Below, one piece after another: positions 17,532-28,817 of a stretch of 64,000 nt of DNA. The notes below the pieces were generated by a model, which had not been told where the DNA came from, made no database searches, and saw only the letters and a program-made list of their open reading frames with translations. Position 1 is the first letter of the stretch; every line of letters begins with the position of its first letter. Source of the stretch: Spirochaetales bacterium Spiro_09. Lineage in GTDB: Bacteria; Spirochaetota; Spirochaetia; Treponematales; Treponemataceae. Both the position numbers and the translations under genes were made by a program. The stretch covers positions 62,001 through 126,000 of the forward strand of contig LVBK01000020.1 of the NCBI GenBank assembly GCA_001604385.1. The letters run 5' to 3'.

Positions 17532-18535
17532 ATACTGGAGTGTAGTGTATTGGCGGACGTTTCGCAAAGCGCTTTCAGGAGGCCCGGCGGATATACGGCA
17601 AGATATATCCGGGACCGGCCCTCATGGGAAGAATAGTATGAAACATGGAGCGTCTTCCGGTGCACTGCCATGCCGGGGTAGCCGCAGTCACCGCCCGAGG
17701 GAAGTTCATGGATAACCGAGAGGGAGTCCCCTTTCATCAGACAAAGGGCAACCAGGGGTTTCCGCTTTTTCCAGATACGGGTCGCCGCAAGGAGCGTGCC
17801 GTCTTCCAGCACGATGAAATTGGGTCCGCCGATGCGTTGTCCGGAGGAAGCCCAGGTCCACCTGGTGTACGGCGGTTCGCTTGTCCCGATTCTGGCTGCG
17901 CCCCGGCCCGCCTCACGACGGACAAGCGCTATGGCGGTTGAACCCCTGAAGCGGATCACCGCTTCGTTGGGCAAACCGGGAACGCGCAATTCGCACAGGT
18001 CATGCCATTCGCGGCCGTCCGCGCTTTTCATCAGGTGAACGGTCCATCTTCTTTTTTCGGGAAGGCGGTAACTGATCCCGTACACTGCCTTTCCGTCCGT
18101 TTCAGGCCGCCACAACCAGTCTCCCTCGCTTCCCGCCTGCCAGCCCTCACTCCATTTCTGTCCGTCCTCCGATTCCCGAAACAGGGTATGGCGGCCAACG
18201 GGCACGCCCTTTACCAGGCGCGTCGCGCCGGTTACCAGAAGAATTTTTTTGGGCGAGAGGACAAGGAATTTCGGGTCGCGCAGATCAACCGACCGTTGCG
18301 AAATCAGGGCAACGCTCGTCCACTGGCGGCCATCCATGGAGCTGATTACCCGTATTTTACCCGGACAGAGGGCATGGGCCTTTGCTTCCCGAAACGTGCA
18401 AAACCACCGGTTTTTGAAGCGTACCAGATCGGTAAAGGCGCAGTGGGGTGCGCCGTCCCAGATCATCTGCAGTGTATAGTTAGCAGCGACGGGACTTTCG
18501 GCGACCATACCGTCAATGCCTGCCATATTCGGCAT
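17528..18535 (-). CDS. Cytosolic Asp-box (sialidase-fold, BNR) protein
   Basis: A 335-residue protein of the six-bladed sialidase fold. Three Asp-box repeats of the S-x-D-G-x-x-W kind are visible: SMDGRQW, SEDGQKW and SADGREW. Further motifs are FREAKAH, LRDPKFLV and GGPNFIVLEDGTLLAA. Typical sialidases are secreted, yet no signal peptide is present here. AAGGAAG supports ATG 18535, which overlaps the end of the LacI-GGDEF gene by 23 bases. Its own stop overlaps the next cyclase start by 4. The substrate is unknown. It could be a glycosidase acting on imported sugars or a non-catalytic binder. The catalytic arginine triad of true sialidases cannot be assigned with confidence. Confidence 0.75.
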   Translation of the reverse strand: MPNMAGIDGMVAESPVAANYTLQMIWDGAPHCAFTDLVRFKNRWFCTFREAKAHALCPGKIRVISSMDGRQWTSVALISQRSVDLRDPKFLVLSPKKILLVTGATRLVKGVPVGRHTLFRESEDGQKWSEGWQAGSEGDWLWRPETDGKAVYGISYRLPEKRRWTVHLMKSADGREWHDLCELRVPGLPNEAVIRFRGSTAIALVRREAGRGAARIGTSEPPYTRWTWASSGQRIGGPNFIVLEDGTLLAATRIWKKRKPLVALCLMKGDSLSVIHELPSGGDCGYPGMAVHRKTLHVSYYSSHEGRSRIYLAVYPPGLLKALCETSANTLHSSM

Positions 18536-20660
18536 TGTGCCGGCTTCCTTTTTTCAATTGTTTTTCGCGGTACAGATCGGTATCCGCTTCTTCCATCATT
18601 TGTTCCAGACTCATGGTGCAATCGACACCGGAATAAAAATGGCCGATGCTTATAGCCAGCGTCCATTCCCTGCCGAGCTCGCGGTTTTTTTCGTCAAAGG
18701 CCTTGTCTATACGTGCCTTGATTGCCGGATAATTCGGCGGTTCGGCCTTGAGCACGAGGGCAGTGTATTCATCTCCGCCCAGGCGGGCCACGAGGTCAGA
18801 GTCCCGCAAGGTTTTCTTGAGTACCTGTCCGGCAGACAGGATGGCAAGGTCTCCGTCAGCGTGACCCCATTTGTCATTGATTATTTTCAGACCGTCAAGA
18901 TCGGCGTACAGTACATAAAAGGGGGTTTGCTGACGACGCAGATATTTTACCTGCTGTTCCGCCATGGCAAGAAAACCCCGTCGATTATAGAGATGGGTCA
19001 GTTCATCCTCGATGGACATGCGCTCAACCAGTGAAATTGCCTCTTTCAGCTTGTTCTCGGTTCGTTGTCTGATTGTGTTCTCGCTTTTGAGCCGTCTGTT
19101 CAGGCGCTGGATTTTCGCGATTGCCAGAATGTCCTTTGTAATGGCGATGCTGCTGATCCTGATCTGATCAAAGGCAGATACTTCCGGGATGCGCTCGTCG
19201 ATAAGCACGAAGCCATATGAGCGTTCGTCATCCAGTATCATGTTTGCTACAAGGGAGCCGGTGCCGCGGGGCGGAAACCAGGAGCCGCTTCCTGCCCTGT
19301 TGTGCGGATATGCGATATTGAATGAAAAAATGGCAGCAGCTCCGTTGTCTGTTTTGCCAAAGGAGCGGAATCGTAACAGGGCTGCCTTATTCGCACCGCA
19401 TACTTCGGCAATCTCGCTGCAGGTGGCAAGATGCTTTTCAATGCGAAGATCCTGTGCCAGTTCACCGTGAAGCCGTTCGAGCAGTATCCGCAGACTTTGT
19501 GTGTGCAGTATCGTTCTCCAATAGTCTGTATAGGTGCGGTGCCCGTATTCTTCCAGAAGATAGGCATAGAGCTCTACGGGCAGGGCTTCTCCGGTTCGGG
19601 TCAGGGTATGTTCGGATACCATGTGCAAGACCTGTTCAAGCTCGTGGCGCGACTTTTGATCCTTCATTATAGTGGTGACCATGGAAGCCCACCTGCGGAG
19701 CACTTCGGTTTTATCCGTCGTCAACACATCCTTTACCTCGCTGTAGAGCGCTGTAGCACCGTCAATCCGTTCGGGCATCCGCCGGGTAAAATCGACACAG
19801 CCGCAGGAATTGCGGATGCGTATCTGGGGCTGCCAGGGCGGGCTGACGGGGGCTTCATGGCCTTCAACAATGGAGGCAAGGTGTTTTGCGGCATGGTAGC
19901 CCAGGGTGTCAAAGGACTGGCTTGCGGTTGTAAACTGGTGTGAAACCGTGCGCGAAATCTGGTGGTCGTCATAGCCGGTTACCGCGATATCGAAGGGGAC
20001 ACTGATTCCCCGATCCGCGAGGGCATTGTAGACTCCGGCCGCCATCATGTCATTCGAACAGACAATTACCTGCGGGCGAATCTTTCGTTTTTCAATGAAC
20101 GTTACAGCCGCCTCATATCCGGAGGGAGCGTTGAAGTTACCCTCGAATTCCCTGCTCTCGTCCCGTTTGATTCCTGCCTCGTCAAGGGCCGCAAGGTAAA
20201 TTTCCTTGCGAAGCCAGGCTTCCCGGTTGCTCATGGGCCCGGACACGAAGGCAAAGTCGCGATACCCGTGATCATCAAGCAAGTGCTTCATGATAGTTCG
20301 CATGCCGCTGATGTTGTCGAAGGTAAAGGATGGTTCTCCGGCTACCGAGGGCCCTATCGACACAATCGGAAGCGATGATAATCTGTTGATGATCGCCAGT
20401 AATTCTTCATTCTGCCCGTTGTGGGCAAGGGTTGCGGAAACCAGGATAAGCCCGTCAAACTCAGCGGGCGATATCATTTCGAAGAACAGTTTTTTCAAAC
20501 TGTCTTCCGGATTTTTCGGGTTAAGATTTCCGACCCCGAAAAATACCGCTTCCATGCCCTTTTCGTCGAGCAGACGGTTGATGCCTGTTCGCACATCAAG
20601 CAAAAAATTGGAAAAGGCATAATCCATACAAACGGCGAAACGTTTTGGGCTGGCAGACAT
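18513..20660 (-). CDS. LacI-type ligand-binding domain fused to GGDEF
   Basis: A 715-residue cytoplasmic protein. Residues about 5-290 form a LacI/RbsB-like periplasmic-binding fold (FDGLILVSATLAHNG, SFTFDNISGMR, VIVCSNDMMAAGVYNAL, VTGYDDHQIS) without the HTH of LacI regulators. The family's RIRNSCGC motif follows. A helical middle and coiled coil (RLNRRLKSENTIRQRTENK) connect to a C-terminal GGDEF domain with IEDELTHLYNRRGFL and YADLDGLKIIND. The active motif is GGDEY, and the I-site RDSD lies five residues upstream. It probably senses a sugar-like ligand and tunes cyclic di-GMP. CGGAGGC upstream supports ATG 20660. It heads the overlapping operon. Confidence 0.88.
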   Translation of the reverse strand: MSASPKRFAVCMDYAFSNFLLDVRTGINRLLDEKGMEAVFFGVGNLNPKNPEDSLKKLFFEMISPAEFDGLILVSATLAHNGQNEELLAIINRLSSLPIVSIGPSVAGEPSFTFDNISGMRTIMKHLLDDHGYRDFAFVSGPMSNREAWLRKEIYLAALDEAGIKRDESREFEGNFNAPSGYEAAVTFIEKRKIRPQVIVCSNDMMAAGVYNALADRGISVPFDIAVTGYDDHQISRTVSHQFTTASQSFDTLGYHAAKHLASIVEGHEAPVSPPWQPQIRIRNSCGCVDFTRRMPERIDGATALYSEVKDVLTTDKTEVLRRWASMVTTIMKDQKSRHELEQVLHMVSEHTLTRTGEALPVELYAYLLEEYGHRTYTDYWRTILHTQSLRILLERLHGELAQDLRIEKHLATCSEIAEVCGANKAALLRFRSFGKTDNGAAAIFSFNIAYPHNRAGSGSWFPPRGTGSLVANMILDDERSYGFVLIDERIPEVSAFDQIRISSIAITKDILAIAKIQRLNRRLKSENTIRQRTENKLKEAISLVERMSIEDELTHLYNRRGFLAMAEQQVKYLRRQQTPFYVLYADLDGLKIINDKWGHADGDLAILSAGQVLKKTLRDSDLVARLGGDEYTALVLKAEPPNYPAIKARIDKAFDEKNRELGREWTLAISIGHFYSGVDCTMSLEQMMEEADTDLYREKQLKKGSRHNAEYGRH

Positions 20661-20832: not shown

Positions 20833-23800
20833 ATGATCGATCTTGCGGGATATCGCGTTACCGAGCTGGTGCATACCGGCTCGGTGTCGACGGTTTACAG
20901 GGGTTTTCGTCTTGATGACGGTAAACCGGTTGTCATAAAAAAGTATGAGGGCGCGGAGGTGGAACGGGAGTATTCCGTCGTTCGCTCGCTCTCCGGCCCC
21001 GGTATTCCGAATCTGGTGTCCTTTGACCGCACCGACAACCGGTCTTTTCTCGTGTACGAGGATACCGGCGGTCTTGCCCTTGATACCGCCCGTTCCGCAG
21101 CGCAATTCGGTCCTGACAATCGTTGTGAAATTTCACTGTCACTTGTTGATATTATATTTTCAATTCATGAACAGGGATATCTGTATACCGCGTTCCATCC
21201 TTCCCGAATCATCTATTGTCCCGATACGGGCGTCATACATCTTGCCGGCCTCGGACACGCCGTATTGGCCGAAAGCATGAAGGTTCCCCTGACGGAACGT
21301 CCTTCCGGGCGTATCGAGTGCATTTCTCCCGAGCAAACAGGCCGGATCCAGAAGATCCCCGATATGCGAAGCGATCTGTATTCGCTGGGCTGTTGCCTTT
21401 ACTGGCTGTGGACCGGACACTATCCGTTTACGGGTGACACGCTCGAGATATTGTACAGTCACATTGCGCGCGTACCGCTTGCCCCCGCACTTGTGGAAGG
21501 AATTCCCGGCGAGCTTTCTGCCATCATCATGAAGCTGCTTTCGAAGCGCAGCGAGGATCGGTATCAGACTGCTGCGGGGTTGCGTTCAGATTTACAGTAT
21601 GCGCTCAGTACCAATCGGGGGGCTGTTTCCCCGGAGGTCTTCGTTGCGGGAGCCCAGGACAAGAATCCGTATTTGCTTCAGTCCTCCCATATATACGGCA
21701 GAAAGGACGAATTCGAGCGAATGACCAGGATCCTGTGCGCAAAGCGCAACACACCGGTGTGCGTACTGGTTTCCGGGGCCTCGGGAATCGGCAAAACAAG
21801 TCTTATCCAGGAGGCCGTTCGCCTCTGTGTGGAAGAGGGTGCGGTGCTGGTTACGGGTACTTTTTCCCTTCTGGAGAGAAATATCCCCTTCAGTATATTG
21901 TCTGCCGTTTTGAGCGACGTATACCGGGCTGTACTGCAAAAAGACGGAGAGAGTGAGCCGTTCAGAACCGAGCTTCTTGCTGCCCTTGATACAAATGCGG
22001 GTATTTTAACGCATCTGGTTCCGGACCTGGTTGCATTACTGGGGGAACACGAAGAGCCGCCCACACTTTTTCCGACTGAGGCATGGAAACGCCTCGTTCG
22101 GGTAGTCGGGGATTTTGTCCGTCTGTGTGCGGATCGCCTGCCGCTGGTAGTGTTTTTTCTGGATGACGTGCAATGGGCCGATATGTCTTCGATGGATTTG
22201 CTTGGTCAGCTGATTTTTTCGAAGGCATCGCCAAATATCCGCTTGATTCTTTCGTACCGTGACTGCGATATTATGTCGGGACACCCTGTCTCTCTTTTTC
22301 TGGAAGATATTCACAAAGGGGGCGGCTTTGGACCGGATATTCAGGAATTTGAAATTGGTCCGCTTCCGGAAACGGACGTGAATCTTCTGGTGGCCGGCAC
22401 TCTGCAGGTATCAAGCGAAATGGCGACAAGTCTTTCCCATTATATTTATACGAAGACCAAGGGTAATCCGTTTTTCAGTTTGCGGCTGTTACAATCCCTG
22501 TCGGAGAGAGGCTTGCTGACAAATGGCGGAAATCCGGGCGACTGGTCCTGGAAAATGGCAGAAATCGAGCGCGCTCCGGTGTCGGACGATGTGGTTGACT
22601 TTCTGGTCGATGAGATGGCTGCCCTGCCTGAGGCTGTTCAGAGTGTATTGAGCAAGGCCGCCTGTATTGGCCAGCGTTTTGACTTTCATGCCCTTTCGCA
22701 CTTTTGCGAACGCAGCGATGGCCTTCCCGGTATTGTCTGGTTGTTGCTCGAGCGGGGGTATATTCTTCCGCTGACTTCCGCATACCGGCGGCTTGATTCG
22801 GCAAAGACTGCCTATGCCGGAAGCGGCGTGGAAATGCTTTTCCGGTTTGCCCATGATCGCATTCATACCGCGGCCTATTCGCTGATGTCATCGCAAACCC
22901 GGGAACAAACGCACCGGCTGATCGGAATGAAGCTGCTTGCTTCCCGCGTTCGGTCAACACCCGGACAGATGCAAATATTCGAGCTGACAAATCAGTTGAA
23001 TCTTGCGGGCCAAACCATCTCGCTTTTTGATGATCGTCTGGAATTGATGCGTCTGAACACCGAGGCGGCCCGAAAAGCCGCTGAAAATACGGCCTATGAT
23101 GTGGCGTTGACCTACGTGGATCGCGCAATATCCCTTTTATCACCACAGGAGTGGGAAGATTATCCGTCGGATCTGTATTGTCTGCGAACCCTTCGTGTTG
23201 AATGTCTTTTTCACCGTCACGGGACGGAAGATGCGCTGAACGAGTGCTCTTTGCTGGTCACTCTGGCCGGCTCAAAGCTTGAGCAGGCTGACGTGTTCGC
23301 CCTTCGGGCAAAGATACTTGACCATGGAGGAGAACGCCGCGAGTTTATCATGGATGAACTGCGGAAAGCCCTTGCGCTCTTCGATGTATCGTTTCCCTAT
23401 GAGCCTGAGCGTCTTTCGGAGCTTGCCGCAGCGTCCCTGGTGCGTATGCGCGATCGTTTTCTGGAAATGGGTGAGTCGGCAACGAATATCATCACCTCCT
23501 TGCCGCTCATGAACAATCCGGAGAATGAGCGGGTCATGCGGCTTTTATATCAGGCCCTTCCGGTCGCTTTCCAGTATAATCAGGATCTCTATCTTTCAAT
23601 ACAGGCCCGGATGTTTTCCATTACCCTTGATTACGGAATCTGCGATGTTTCGTGCAAAAACCTGGTTGAGTGCGGCATGTCGCTGGGCAGTATTTTCGGT
23701 ATGTATCGGGAAGGTCATGCGTGCGGAAAAATCGCCTTCGATCTGATTGATCGCTACCGGTATCGCGAACAGAAGTCCGCCTGCTGTTTTATATTCGCAA

Positions 23801-25998
23801 CCTTCATTTCGCACTGGAGCGCCCCGTTTTCTGAAAGCCTTGAGTATTTTGATTTATCCATAAAGAGCGGACTTGAACTGGGGGACATTCAGCATGCCGC
23901 CTATGCCGCGACGCATCGCTTTAACCGTCTGGTATATACTTCCCTGCCGCTGAGCGAGGCCTCCCGTACACTGGAAGAATTGAAGGTCTTTCTTGAGTCG
24001 GTTCAGGGAAACTTGCTGTTGGTGTATGCCGAATATCTTCGCTATTTTATTGATCGCCTGACCGGCAGGGCGGATATTTCCCGTGAGTCCGATCTGGCCG
24101 CTGTCGCTGCCTCGGACGACAATGTGTTTTATCGCTGCATATTCGGACAGTTGAATGTGTTTTATTCGGTCGTCATGGGAGACCTTGAGGCCGCTGCCCA
24201 GTGGGTCGCGTATACCGAACCATTTTTGAATTCCGGTATCGGTATGTTTCCTCTGGCGGATCATGTGTTGTTCCGCTTGCTGACCGTACTCCGACAGGAG
24301 CGCGCGAAGAAAACAGAGCTTACTGAAGGTGAGCGAAAAATAGTCGAGACCTCGCTGGCTCAACTTGAGCTGTGGGCTGAAAACTCGAGCGAGAATTTTT
24401 ACCCGGTCTATTGGTTTGCGCTCGCGGAATATCGTGCTAGCGAGGGAAGGGCCCCTTCCGAGGTTCTGGAGGCATACCGCAAGGCGCTTGAGGGAATCCG
24501 TCCGGGCAGCTTTGAGTACATTCGGGCGATGGTGCTGGAAGGCGAGGGCTTGTACCGGAGTATGACAGGTGACGTCGCAGGTTTTCACTCATCCATACGA
24601 TCTTCCTGTGCCGCGTTTCGCCTGTGGGGAGCTACCGAGAAGGTGTCCCTCATGGAACGCCAGTATCCTTTCGTGCAGGATCGTCCGCTCATCCGGCTGT
24701 CACAGGGTGAGGTCTCCGAGGGCGGACCGATACTTTTTGAGCGGACCCTTTCCGCGGTACAGGTGCTTGCACGCGACTTGAAGCGGGATTCTGTCATTGC
24801 TGCCGCCTTGCGACTGGTGTGCGAGTTATTGGACATGGACCGGGGTGTTTTTCTTGCACCGATACCGGGCACCGCCCAATTTTCTGCGGTTGCCGGGTGC
24901 GAGCGGAATATGGAAGGATATGTCGTGGTACATGAGGGTGACACGCACGAAAGGTCGCGGATAGCGTGCAATCGTGATGTCGTCCGTCAGGTGCACAATT
25001 CGGGCGACCTCGTGTTGCTTCATTGCGCGTCTGAAGTACGATCCCGTTTTTCCCCGGTGACGGAGGGTCTCCCGGAAGCCTTGGTATGCGCTTCAGTGAA
25101 AAGCCAGAATCTGCAGTTCGGTGTGTTATATCTTGATTCGCTCCGGACCCGTGAGGGTTTTGATTCCGCGCTCAGGGCGTCTCTTGTGTGTATTCTTGAG
25201 CAGCTGGGTGTCTCTCTGGAACACGCGCACCGGTTTGACGATCTTGAGGGAAGACTCTGTTTGCGCAATGAGCAGGTAGCATCACTTCAACGCGAAAACA
25301 GCGAACTGTCGCTGGTTGATCCGATCACCGGATTATACAACCGCAGATACCTTGATGAGGTCGTCAAGGAAACCTGTGAAAAACATATGCAGGCGTATTC
25401 TTCCGTTCAGTGGTCCCGGGAAAAACGGCGGGGTTTTTTGGGCCGCTACGTCACGGGCGTCGTGCTGGTCCGTCTGGACTCCTGGTCGCGGGTTCATGCC
25501 GTGTATGGGCAAACCGCTTCCAGCCAGTTGATGTCCCGGTTCACGGACCAGTTGCGCGCACTCGTCAGAAAAAACGATGTCCTGATCAAATGGGGATCTG
25601 ACGATATTCTCGTATTGCTGACAAACGCGACCCGCCGGTTTATTCCCCGTTTTGTCGACAAAGTCCTGTCTGCCTGCGCCAACGGGGAAGTGGATCTGGG
25701 TGATAACCGGAAGTTCCGTCTTGACTGCAGCGTGGGCTCCTGTTCCTTCCCTTTGTACGCCGGACAATCGGACCGCTTTTCATTGGACTCGGCAATTACC
25801 CTTTGCTGTGTCGTACGCAATTCCATAAGCCGCCGCACCGGAAGCCAGGCCGCCTGCGCTACCGGCAGGCGTTTCCGCGATGACGGTATCTCCCTTGAGA
25901 GCTGGCTTGACCGACTTGAGGCCGACAGCGACTTTGACGACCGGTTTATTACCGTCGATTATCGTGGATCCTCCCGTGCCGTTTCCGGAAATGCCTGA
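20833..25998 (+). CDS. Giant pseudokinase-ATPase-GAF-degenerate GGDEF protein
   Basis: A 1721-residue soluble protein. Residues 1-265 are a protein-kinase fold: the ATP lysine is kept (VVIKKY, K36), but the glycine loop is poor. The HRD loop is replaced by AFHPSRIIY and DFG by AGLG, so it is probably a pseudokinase. An AAA/STAND ATPase follows with Walker A GASGIGKTSL (about 312-322) and Walker B VVFFLDDVQWAD (about 437-448), then a long TPR-like helical region (about 720-1270). A GAF domain spans about 1310-1460. A GGDEF domain (DPITGLYNRRYL at about 1495) carries GSDDI in place of GGDEF. The layout matches trifunctional kinase/ATPase/histidine-kinase proteins, with GGDEF at the end. A regulatory scaffold is likely. 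Confidence 0.88.
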   Translation: MIDLAGYRVTELVHTGSVSTVYRGFRLDDGKPVVIKKYEGAEVEREYSVVRSLSGPGIPNLVSFDRTDNRSFLVYEDTGGLALDTARSAAQFGPDNRCEISLSLVDIIFSIHEQGYLYTAFHPSRIIYCPDTGVIHLAGLGHAVLAESMKVPLTERPSGRIECISPEQTGRIQKIPDMRSDLYSLGCCLYWLWTGHYPFTGDTLEILYSHIARVPLAPALVEGIPGELSAIIMKLLSKRSEDRYQTAAGLRSDLQYALSTNRGAVSPEVFVAGAQDKNPYLLQSSHIYGRKDEFERMTRILCAKRNTPVCVLVSGASGIGKTSLIQEAVRLCVEEGAVLVTGTFSLLERNIPFSILSAVLSDVYRAVLQKDGESEPFRTELLAALDTNAGILTHLVPDLVALLGEHEEPPTLFPTEAWKRLVRVVGDFVRLCADRLPLVVFFLDDVQWADMSSMDLLGQLIFSKASPNIRLILSYRDCDIMSGHPVSLFLEDIHKGGGFGPDIQEFEIGPLPETDVNLLVAGTLQVSSEMATSLSHYIYTKTKGNPFFSLRLLQSLSERGLLTNGGNPGDWSWKMAEIERAPVSDDVVDFLVDEMAALPEAVQSVLSKAACIGQRFDFHALSHFCERSDGLPGIVWLLLERGYILPLTSAYRRLDSAKTAYAGSGVEMLFRFAHDRIHTAAYSLMSSQTREQTHRLIGMKLLASRVRSTPGQMQIFELTNQLNLAGQTISLFDDRLELMRLNTEAARKAAENTAYDVALTYVDRAISLLSPQEWEDYPSDLYCLRTLRVECLFHRHGTEDALNECSLLVTLAGSKLEQADVFALRAKILDHGGERREFIMDELRKALALFDVSFPYEPERLSELAAASLVRMRDRFLEMGESATNIITSLPLMNNPENERVMRLLYQALPVAFQYNQDLYLSIQARMFSITLDYGICDVSCKNLVECGMSLGSIFGMYREGHACGKIAFDLIDRYRYREQKSACCFIFATFISHWSAPFSESLEYFDLSIKSGLELGDIQHAAYAATHRFNRLVYTSLPLSEASRTLEELKVFLESVQGNLLLVYAEYLRYFIDRLTGRADISRESDLAAVAASDDNVFYRCIFGQLNVFYSVVMGDLEAAAQWVAYTEPFLNSGIGMFPLADHVLFRLLTVLRQERAKKTELTEGERKIVETSLAQLELWAENSSENFYPVYWFALAEYRASEGRAPSEVLEAYRKALEGIRPGSFEYIRAMVLEGEGLYRSMTGDVAGFHSSIRSSCAAFRLWGATEKVSLMERQYPFVQDRPLIRLSQGEVSEGGPILFERTLSAVQVLARDLKRDSVIAAALRLVCELLDMDRGVFLAPIPGTAQFSAVAGCERNMEGYVVVHEGDTHERSRIACNRDVVRQVHNSGDLVLLHCASEVRSRFSPVTEGLPEALVCASVKSQNLQFGVLYLDSLRTREGFDSALRASLVCILEQLGVSLEHAHRFDDLEGRLCLRNEQVASLQRENSELSLVDPITGLYNRRYLDEVVKETCEKHMQAYSSVQWSREKRRGFLGRYVTGVVLVRLDSWSRVHAVYGQTASSQLMSRFTDQLRALVRKNDVLIKWGSDDILVLLTNATRRFIPRFVDKVLSACANGEVDLGDNRKFRLDCSVGSCSFPLYAGQSDRFSLDSAITLCCVVRNSISRRTGSQAACATGRRFRDDGISLESWLDRLEADSDFDDRFITVDYRGSSRAVSGNA

Positions 25999-26010
25999 GG
26001 GAAGATAATC

Positions 26011-28725
26011 CTACAATTGTATACCCATGACGAGGGCCGTAACCGTAAAGCCGTTTTGTTCAAAGAGCCAGGCGTAGCGGATGCCGGCCTGTATTTCGAA
26101 TGGCAGCTGAAGCGGCATGAAGTGTGATATCAGATCAAGGCCAACCGCTTTGAGGGTTTCCCCGCTCTCCAGAATACTGTTTGCGTCGTAGAATACTTCT
26201 GCGGCGATTTTATTGAAATACACCAGTGAGCCGAGCGCGGCATCGGGATAAACGAGGGGAAGATTCCAGCTGAGACCTGCCGACACACGCCCTTTTCCCG
26301 ACATGCCGTCCGAGCCCTTGTAGTATCCGGTCATCACTGGCTGCGCGTCATCCGGCGCGAATTCCGAAGCGGCATAGAAGCCGATGCTGTCGCGACGCAG
26401 TGGGCCCCTGAGGGATGAGCGCACGGAAGACCACAGATGGGCTGTATCACGCGCCTTTGCGGGATCGGCGGTCAGCGCGCCAAGCACGGCAACGCTCGTC
26501 AGCGGATGATACCATTGCTGCGATATCTGGGCCAGGACAAGCGCCTCCGCCTCGGATCCGGTGAATCTGCTTCCCGTGGAAAGGGCAAGCAGGGTATGGA
26601 AACTCCAGGTGCCCGGCCTTTCGACACCGAAGGGCAGTTCAACTCCTGCGGTAAACTGCGCACTGTTATCCTGTGCGATGTTGTCGGGTGCTCCGGAAAA
26701 GAGTGCTGAAAGGGTTAACCGGGGCCGATACCGCGACCAGCGGGTAGTCCATGAACCGGTAACAGTACTGGTGCGGACATCCCAGAGCGAGAGAAAATCA
26801 TGCGAAAGTACCCCGGCGAGATTGTCGATTCCGAGTGTCAGGCCGATTCTGCTTCGTGTCAATTCATCAACTGCAATACCCCACCGGGTAGGGCGGTTGC
26901 CATCAAGCTCGGCCGTCCAGTCACGGACGGGACCCTCGAATTTTGCAATCAGTGAAGGGTTAATCTCTGTGGCCGGTCCTTCCTGCGTGTGGGCTGTATG
27001 ATAAAAATCCTCCCGCACAATCGGGACATTGCTCCGGCTTATTGGCACTATGTCATCGCTGTTGACCACTGCGATGCTGTCACCCGTCGATCCGGAAAAG
27101 TCGACAAAGTAAAGGTTTCCCGAATCCGGGTCAGGCGTCGGGTATCGGGCGGAATAGGGCCTGCCGAACAGCTGTTCGGGGGCCGATCCCTCGTTCATGC
27201 GCCACAGGGTTTCAATCCCGGACCAGGTGGAGCTGAATACGATCGAGTTTGAATCAGCTACCGGACTGGATATACGCTCTTCCTGCGATTGCATCATAAC
27301 GCGCAGTGTCCCAGTGTCCATGTCGAGGGTAACCAGGCGGCTTCCCTGCCATTGGGCCCGGAATGAATACGGGTAGAGGATGCCGATAAGGGTCCGGCTG
27401 TCTGCTCCAAAGCGGAAATCGGCCAGTATTGTGCCCGGCTCGCATGTAAAGCGGGATACTTCGCTGAAATCGGCAAGGGACAGAAGAAGAATTGAGTACT
27501 CCCCTTCAGGCGAACGGGCACGAACCGCAATCACTGTTCCATCGGGACTGAGCGCCGGATGGTCAAGGTTTCCTCCGTTCGCCAGGACGCGCGTACGGCC
27601 GGTGCGGGTGTCACGGACAATAATTCGCGTTGTTGATGAGGCAAACACCGTGTCAAACTGAAATTCGTCCCAGGCAATCAGGGATCCCGCGGCGCTGAGT
27701 GCCGATGCGGGGCGAGCGCGCGCAAGCAGCCGGGTTTCTCCGTTCGAGTGGCGTACAATTTCAGAAATACCGTCTGTTCGGGTATGATAGATGAGTGAAC
27801 CGTCATCGATCCGGTTAAGGTGGGTAATTTCCCGAAAGGTCTGTTCCCGGGGCGGAACTATCCATCGTACCGGTGTGACCGGCAGTGTCAACTGCTGCCG
27901 TTCCCAGAAGGCTCGATACCAGGCAGTCATTTCCCGCAGCGAGTTCTTGCCTCCTTTACCGGTTACCGCTTTCATGGCGCGATAGGGCCCCCATGCAGGT
28001 ACCGGTGTTTGAGTCCAGGCGTTCAACAGGGTTTTCGGTGCTTCCGGCGAATATTCGCTTCTCATCCAGGCCTGCATTACATAGCCGAAGGTATAGGCAT
28101 CCGGCACCTCATCCCGGAAGGAACCGAGAAGGAACTTGTTATAGGACCACTCTTTGTTCTCCAGAACAATTGCCTTGAAGAGTTTGGTAAAATCAGGATC
28201 CCGGCCCCTGCCTCCCGAAGTATATATCGTTTCCGCCATTACCGCATCGCCCTCAAGCCACCACAGGGGCATCAGGGGAAGAAAGCCGATTTCACCGTTC
28301 AAAAAATAGAGGGCCCGTGTCGTGTTCCGGTTCAGAGAATCGATCTGAAACATGTGTCGGCCCTCGTGAATGGCAAGCAGTGTCAGCCAATCGCTTCCGA
28401 AGGATACTCCCGGCGACGTAAAAAAGGTAGCTCTCCGGGGCAACAGGCTGACGCTGCCGTTGGCGTGCGCGGTGAAGGGGTTCAAAAGAACGGGGAAACG
28501 GTAGTTTCGAGAGGGCTGCAGCGCTGATTGTTGAAAGGGCCACAAATGTTCGAGTATGGCTGCCGAATATCGGGCGTCCTCTTCCAGAAAAGCGGGAAAA
28601 ATAATCTCGTAGTGCTCGCTGTCCAGTTTTTTCCATCCCGCAGTTCCCTGTGGAACCGGCTGGGCTGTGAGCAGAAGCGGGCATGAGAGGACGGCAAGGA
28701 CCATCACCAAGTGTCGTTTACTCAT
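26011..28725 (-). CDS. Outer-membrane gluzincin-like protease with propeller and barrel
   Basis: A 904-residue exported protein with a signal peptide (VMVLAVLSCPLLLTAQ). An N-terminal domain has the zinc motif HEGRH (120-124) and WLEGDA with Glu at about 158, the HExxH plus E pattern of gluzincin/peptidase-MA proteins. A TolB-like propeller follows (about 300-600: ALSPDGTVIAVRARSPEG and ILADFRFGADSRTLIGILYP). The last 280 residues have alternating polar/aromatic strands (WTTRWSRYRPRLTLSALF) and end GIQL, suggesting an outer-membrane beta-barrel. ATG 28725 was chosen over a TTG at 28791, which would push the signal peptide inward. A -10 lies 7 bases upstream and there is no ribosome site. Convergent with the giant gene, 12 bases apart. 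Confidence 0.75.
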   Translation of the reverse strand: MSKRHLVMVLAVLSCPLLLTAQPVPQGTAGWKKLDSEHYEIIFPAFLEEDARYSAAILEHLWPFQQSALQPSRNYRFPVLLNPFTAHANGSVSLLPRRATFFTSPGVSFGSDWLTLLAIHEGRHMFQIDSLNRNTTRALYFLNGEIGFLPLMPLWWLEGDAVMAETIYTSGGRGRDPDFTKLFKAIVLENKEWSYNKFLLGSFRDEVPDAYTFGYVMQAWMRSEYSPEAPKTLLNAWTQTPVPAWGPYRAMKAVTGKGGKNSLREMTAWYRAFWERQQLTLPVTPVRWIVPPREQTFREITHLNRIDDGSLIYHTRTDGISEIVRHSNGETRLLARARPASALSAAGSLIAWDEFQFDTVFASSTTRIIVRDTRTGRTRVLANGGNLDHPALSPDGTVIAVRARSPEGEYSILLLSLADFSEVSRFTCEPGTILADFRFGADSRTLIGILYPYSFRAQWQGSRLVTLDMDTGTLRVMMQSQEERISSPVADSNSIVFSSTWSGIETLWRMNEGSAPEQLFGRPYSARYPTPDPDSGNLYFVDFSGSTGDSIAVVNSDDIVPISRSNVPIVREDFYHTAHTQEGPATEINPSLIAKFEGPVRDWTAELDGNRPTRWGIAVDELTRSRIGLTLGIDNLAGVLSHDFLSLWDVRTSTVTGSWTTRWSRYRPRLTLSALFSGAPDNIAQDNSAQFTAGVELPFGVERPGTWSFHTLLALSTGSRFTGSEAEALVLAQISQQWYHPLTSVAVLGALTADPAKARDTAHLWSSVRSSLRGPLRRDSIGFYAASEFAPDDAQPVMTGYYKGSDGMSGKGRVSAGLSWNLPLVYPDAALGSLVYFNKIAAEVFYDANSILESGETLKAVGLDLISHFMPLQLPFEIQAGIRYAWLFEQNGFTVTALVMGIQL

Positions 28726-28741: not shown

Positions 28742-28817
28742 CGCTGCCATGAAAATGTTGACCCCATGACGCGCTTTTTCCTGTTTGTCAAAATATCGGT
28801 AACCTTTCATGATTTTC

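Follow-up and report, generated by a model that had tools for sequence, protein, structure and literature searches.

A widespread bacterial protein family with a gluzincin-like zinc motif, a TolB-like propeller, and a predicted Omp85-type barrel

The gene considered here, located in a window of 64,000 nucleotides (the whole stretch of DNA that was analyzed), raises the question of whether its product is a zinc peptidase carried on its own outer membrane barrel. The initial annotation had proposed a gluzincin-type zinc motif followed by propeller blades and a strand-rich, apparently barrel-forming C terminus, i.e., a surface or periplasmic protease of uncommon design. The reading frame starts with an ATG to which the starts of the homologues correspond; an alternative upstream TTG at position 28791 would extend the 904-residue protein by 22 residues. 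Inspection of the sequence by eye revealed a putative signal peptide ending in LLLTA, and the following residue, Q22, is kept in at least 90% of 72 homologues. Lipidation via C15 is unlikely, as the homologues show an Ala-Gln cleavage site without a cysteine.

26011 to 28725, minus strand: coding sequence of the three-domain protein, 904 amino acids, with the ATG at 28725 and the stop codon ending at 26011
28663 to 28725, minus strand: putative signal peptide, residues 1 to 21, with cleavage before Q22

The N-terminal domain was delimited by hhalign alignment to N-terminal domains positive for PF13485 and by AlphaFold2 (AF2). Its features are as follows.

27871 to 28638, minus strand: zinc metallopeptidase-like domain, residues 30 to 285
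28354 to 28368, minus strand: HEGRH, residues 120 to 124, within predicted helix 113 to 130; invariant in 72/72 and 33/33 relatives
28243 to 28260, minus strand: WLEGDA, residues 156 to 161, within predicted helix 154 to 168; E158 and G159 invariant
28231 to 28233, minus strand: E165, a second invariant glutamate (72/72 and 33/33)
28093 to 28095, minus strand: Y211, an invariant tyrosine (72/72 and 33/33)

Translation thus places HEGRH exactly where it had been annotated, and WLEGDA, previously given as about residues 155 to 160, at 156 to 161. An HExxH motif with a conserved glutamate downstream is the pattern of gluzincins (clan MA(E)), and it is present in the 904-residue protein and its relatives. 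Specifically, 33 divergent spirochaete members sharing 14 to 34% identity all have H120, E121, H124, E158, G159, E165, G172, R173, Y211, and G214, and the same ten residues are invariant in 72 members from many phyla with 21 to 32% identity; in the latter set, R123, Q127, D160, A161, V162, T166, and G174 are among the further invariant positions. When the 904-residue sequence was shuffled, HExxH occurred in 1.7% of the shuffles and HExxH combined with a suitably spaced W..E[GA] in 0.01%. A chance origin of HExxH is excluded by the conservation of the site, and the invariance of the catalytic residues in roughly 100 distinct proteins of low identity speaks equally against a dead site. We take H120, H124, and E158 to be the zinc ligands and E121 to be the general base, following general knowledge of clan MA(E), and Y211 is a candidate for the transition-state-stabilizing tyrosine found in other gluzincins. 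In the AF2 model, both zinc motifs lie on helices of an α/β domain, for which pLDDT values are mostly between 83 and 97. The invariance of the catalytic residues favors an active enzyme, in which the HExxH...E site, judged by its sequence, very probably binds zinc and cleaves peptide bonds.

Pfam gave nothing above cut-off for the 904-residue protein, the gathering cut-off of PF13485 (Peptidase_MA_2) included; likewise, the isolated N-terminal domains of 54 relatives had no credible Pfam match, and a PDB sequence search with the N-domain profile returned zero matches. A sister group of spirochaete proteins (L209 to L216), encoded by single open reading frames of about 950 to 1030 residues, scores above the Pfam cut-off with PF13485 as well as with PF01103. 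Profile-profile comparison aligned our family with this group end to end (P 100, E 2.5e-47); the alignment comprises 823 columns, beginning at the signal peptide and reaching the barrel, and domain order and length match as well. The peptidase domains alone were also aligned with confidence by hhalign (P 98.9, E 1.3e-17; reversed control, 0.09), and in this alignment the sister group differs from our protein by lacking a counterpart of E165. Conservation, comparison with a Pfam-recognized sister group, and structure prediction all support the three-domain reading of the initial annotation. In contrast to the sister group, the branch of the 904-residue protein has two of its three domains invisible to Pfam, so that its members are easily annotated as "TolB" or as hypothetical proteins.

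The full-length AF2 model, built from 72 sequences, confidently displays three domains (pLDDT 86.9, pTM 0.88). Beyond the peptidase-like domain, it comprises the following elements.

27061 to 27867, minus strand: TolB-like β-propeller, residues 287 to 555, based on TolB matches, AF2, and Foldseek
26899 to 27060, minus strand: linker, residues 556 to 609, from AF2 secondary structure
26014 to 26898, minus strand: C-terminal 16-stranded Omp85-type β-barrel, residues 610 to 904, from AF2 of residues 585 to 904 and Foldseek
26314 to 26319, minus strand: position of the Omp85 loop-6 RG motif, K803-G804, between predicted barrel strands 11 and 12

The propeller has about 24 predicted strands, which would correspond to six blades. 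Its presence, already suspected from the sequence, is supported by a match of the 904-residue protein to NCBIfam TIGR02800 (E 6.7e-5) and by TolB matches in 29 of the 33 divergent members. The family profile also detected TolB in the PDB (E 2e-25), with the similarity confined to the propeller repeats, and a Foldseek search with the full-length model, dominated by this domain, returned TolB and other propellers. By both sequence and fold, TolB is the closest solved propeller.

Omp85 proteins have a 16-stranded barrel with an RG(F/Y) motif in loop 6, the loop that joins strands 11 and 12. Modeled alone, residues 585 to 904 form a barrel of 16 strands, of which 11 precede and 5 follow the RG-motif loop, and the longest loop is the one between strands 11 and 12 that holds the RG motif position. 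Of the two motif residues, R is present in 69 and G in 71 of 72 relatives; the 904-residue protein itself reads KGS. The 17 best Foldseek matches of the isolated barrel were all TamA, FhaC, or BAM-complex chains, with E values of 8e-5 to 1e-3 and TM scores up to 0.51 for TamA, FhaC, and BamA. Sequence comparisons gave the following picture: PF01103 (Omp85) did not match the 904-residue protein above the Pfam cut-off, the isolated barrel domains of 54 relatives had no credible Pfam match, and the barrel profile found zero matches in a PDB sequence search. The barrel-only profile matched BamA weakly (E 0.02; controls, about 0.17), so that the Omp85 assignment draws chiefly on structure prediction. 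The barrels of our family and the sister group likewise aligned weakly on their own (E 0.005; control, 0.19), with the RG and FxD motifs lined up, and the sister-group barrel aligned with BamA barrels at E 8e-24. Taken as a model-based assignment, an Omp85-type barrel is supported. The barrel expected by the initial annotation was thus recovered, spanning residues 610 to 903 (about 294 residues compared with the 280 claimed), and a soluble C-terminal domain is ruled out by the 16-stranded model and the Foldseek matches. A POTRA domain before the barrel is usual, not universal, in the Omp85 superfamily; no POTRA-like element is predicted by AF2 secondary structure in residues 556 to 609. The protein is not BamA, the core insertase with its POTRA repeats and barrel: it has no POTRA domain, and its genome has a separate BamA-like open reading frame (G000:C58). 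Overall, the computations show a protein of three domains whose catalytic residues are conserved and whose barrel is of the Omp85 type.

The combination proved to be anything but uncommon. Searches with the single sequence gave matches in 36 of 145 genomes of its own family and in 60 of 296 of the phylum; a profile of the 33 divergent members, applied at E ≤ 1e-10, detected members in 129 of 149 spirochaete genomes, representing 72 of 83 genera. Most of the best spirochaete matches start near the beginning of the profile, in frames of about 900 to 1100 residues. A scan of public genomes yielded at least 584 confirmed relatives in about ten phyla. The 80 of these that were listed include Bacteroidota, Chlorobi, Ignavibacteriales, Balneolaceae, Calditrichaceae, Neomarinimicrobiota, Aminicenantes, Gemmatimonadaceae, Bacteriovoracaceae, and Spirochaetota, and among the matches listed, members are widespread in Bacteroidota and other phyla. 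Catalytic residues that are invariant over about ten phyla, together with the presence of members in 72 of 83 sampled spirochaete genera, point to a widely conserved, unstudied envelope function. A tblastn search of plasmids with a Bacteroidota member gave zero matches.

Besides the 904-residue gene, the source genome has another full-length copy (G000:C47), in a frame of 966 residues. A third member (G000:C74:7371-8741, L221) has a 718-residue frame that covers profile positions 10 to 580 only and is without the barrel, being truncated, frameshifted, or provided with a different C terminus. A divergent member of 1052 residues (L220, G020:C1) occurs in a reduced genome of the same family, a single contig of 1,139,633 bases; its motifs read HELTH and TEGVAVAFES, and the barrel part of its match is weak. 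In genus g31, none of the four sampled small genomes (1.0 to 1.5 Mb) has a member, whereas most other spirochaete genera have one. In Treponema pallidum, according to a 2026 review of its outer membrane proteins, the only stand-alone ones are BamA and LptD (PMC13403249). Regarding the genomic context, a convergent open reading frame of 1721 residues (20833 to 25998, plus strand) is separated from the 904-residue gene by 12 bases; read by eye only, it would encode a Ser/Thr kinase, a P-loop ATPase, a GAF-like domain, and a degenerate GGDEF domain. A further frame of 715 residues (18513 to 20660, minus strand), also read by eye only, would combine a LacI-type periplasmic-binding-like domain with GGDEF (motif RLGGDEY). 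None of the neighbors is common to other loci, and the neighbors shared among Bacteroidota are lineage-level housekeeping genes; no conserved neighbor was found.

Considering all of this, we propose that the protein is a secreted, outer membrane-anchored zinc peptidase that faces the periplasm and acts on envelope proteins, a reading that we consider probable as a whole. The signal peptide would send the protein to the periplasm, the 16-stranded barrel would insert into the outer membrane, and the propeller and peptidase domain would be held at its periplasmic face. There, the HExxH...E site would bind zinc and cut peptide bonds, and the propeller might serve as a docking or substrate-presenting platform; substrates would most likely be envelope proteins, e.g., misassembled outer membrane or secreted proteins. 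With respect to orientation, the annotation had left surface and periplasm side by side. A periplasmic location of peptidase and propeller is likely, because of the signal peptide, the even number of barrel strands, and the precedent of PlpD, a patatin-Omp85 protein and the single Omp85 case tested with an N-terminal enzyme domain, which stays in the periplasm (PMC11116518).

The opposite orientation, in which the barrel would move the propeller and the peptidase domain to the outside, where the enzyme would act on extracellular proteins, is improbable. The sixteen strands of the model would leave both barrel ends in the periplasm; moreover, we know of no precedent for a propeller and an α/β enzyme passing through their own Omp85 barrel. 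Two-partner-secretion proteins, which belong to the superfamily, do move unfolded proteins outwards (PMC11116518), and PlpD was formerly interpreted in this manner according to Heinz and Lithgow (PMC4104836), but its N-terminal domain proved to be periplasmic (PMC11116518), which by analogy argues for the same arrangement here. The invariance of the presumed base E121 and of all ligands, unneeded in a noncatalytic module, also makes it unlikely that the protein is a BamA/TamA-like insertase or translocase whose zinc domain binds substrates or plays a structural part; in addition, it has no POTRA domain, and the genome has its separate BamA-like gene. Such an activity would nevertheless suit an Omp85-type barrel with a loop-6 motif and a propeller as in BamB, and Heinz and Lithgow suggested an insertase- or translocase-like role for WD40-Omp85 proteins in 2014 (PMC4104836). 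Finally, the resemblance to TolB in sequence and fold would fit a Tol- or peptidoglycan-linked envelope anchor whose propeller binds Pal-type lipoproteins and whose peptidase trims them. We consider this very improbable, as outside the propeller repeats the sequence shows no similarity to TolB, and conserved neighbors of any kind are missing.

As for the task of the proposed periplasmic peptidase, our leading guess, a tentative one, is that it serves the quality control or maturation of outer membrane proteins and not some other envelope function. This is drawn by analogy from BepA, an M48 peptidase that degrades or matures outer membrane proteins on BAM (PMC8423444), and from BamB, a BAM propeller (PMC13067283); the neighboring genes lend it no support. 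Doubtful, and offered as speculation, is the more elaborate picture of a single-chain quality-control machine, near-universal in spirochaetes, whose BepA-like protease, BamB-like propeller, and BamA-like barrel would together clear or mature outer membrane proteins beside a reduced spirochaete BAM.

Few proteases act on outer membrane proteins, and most, such as BepA and DegP, are peripheral; a predicted protease that carries an Omp85-type barrel of its own contrasts with these. BepA resembles the 904-residue protein, as a functional analogy, in being a periplasmic zinc peptidase at the outer membrane; unlike it, BepA is peripheral and has neither barrel nor propeller, and no sequence match was found between the two. 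The name "Metallo," given to one Omp85 subfamily, may mislead in this context, as PF00149 is presumably the calcineurin-like phosphoesterase family. Heinz and Lithgow defined this separate group by PF00149 and called it metalloprotease (PMC4104836). Our literature search found no gluzincin-propeller outer membrane protein and no published report of a functional test of the three-domain family, and no protein of this type is among the subunits named in the passages on BAM complexes purified from Flavobacterium johnsoniae and Bacteroides (PMC12611786, PMC12578637). PlpD shares with our protein an enzyme domain, periplasmic in PlpD, that is N-terminal to an Omp85 barrel, but this is a patatin-like lipase domain, and PlpD has POTRA and lacks a propeller. 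WD40-Omp85 was defined in 2014 as a TolB-like propeller with an Omp85 barrel and likened to a BamA-BamB fusion (PMC4104836), and Omp85 subfamilies including this one are still called not well characterized (PMC11116518). Compared by the description in the main text, WD40-Omp85 corresponds to the 904-residue protein in its TolB/WD40-like propeller N-terminal to the barrel; an N-terminal peptidase domain is absent from that main text and would, relative to its description, be the added feature (PMC4104836). Since the propeller-barrel fusion was thus already defined, the 904-residue protein is best classed as similar to WD40-Omp85 and extended at the N terminus by a gluzincin-like domain. It is widespread and apparently uncharacterized, and it adds a likely catalytic activity to a class so far described as a fusion of propeller and barrel.
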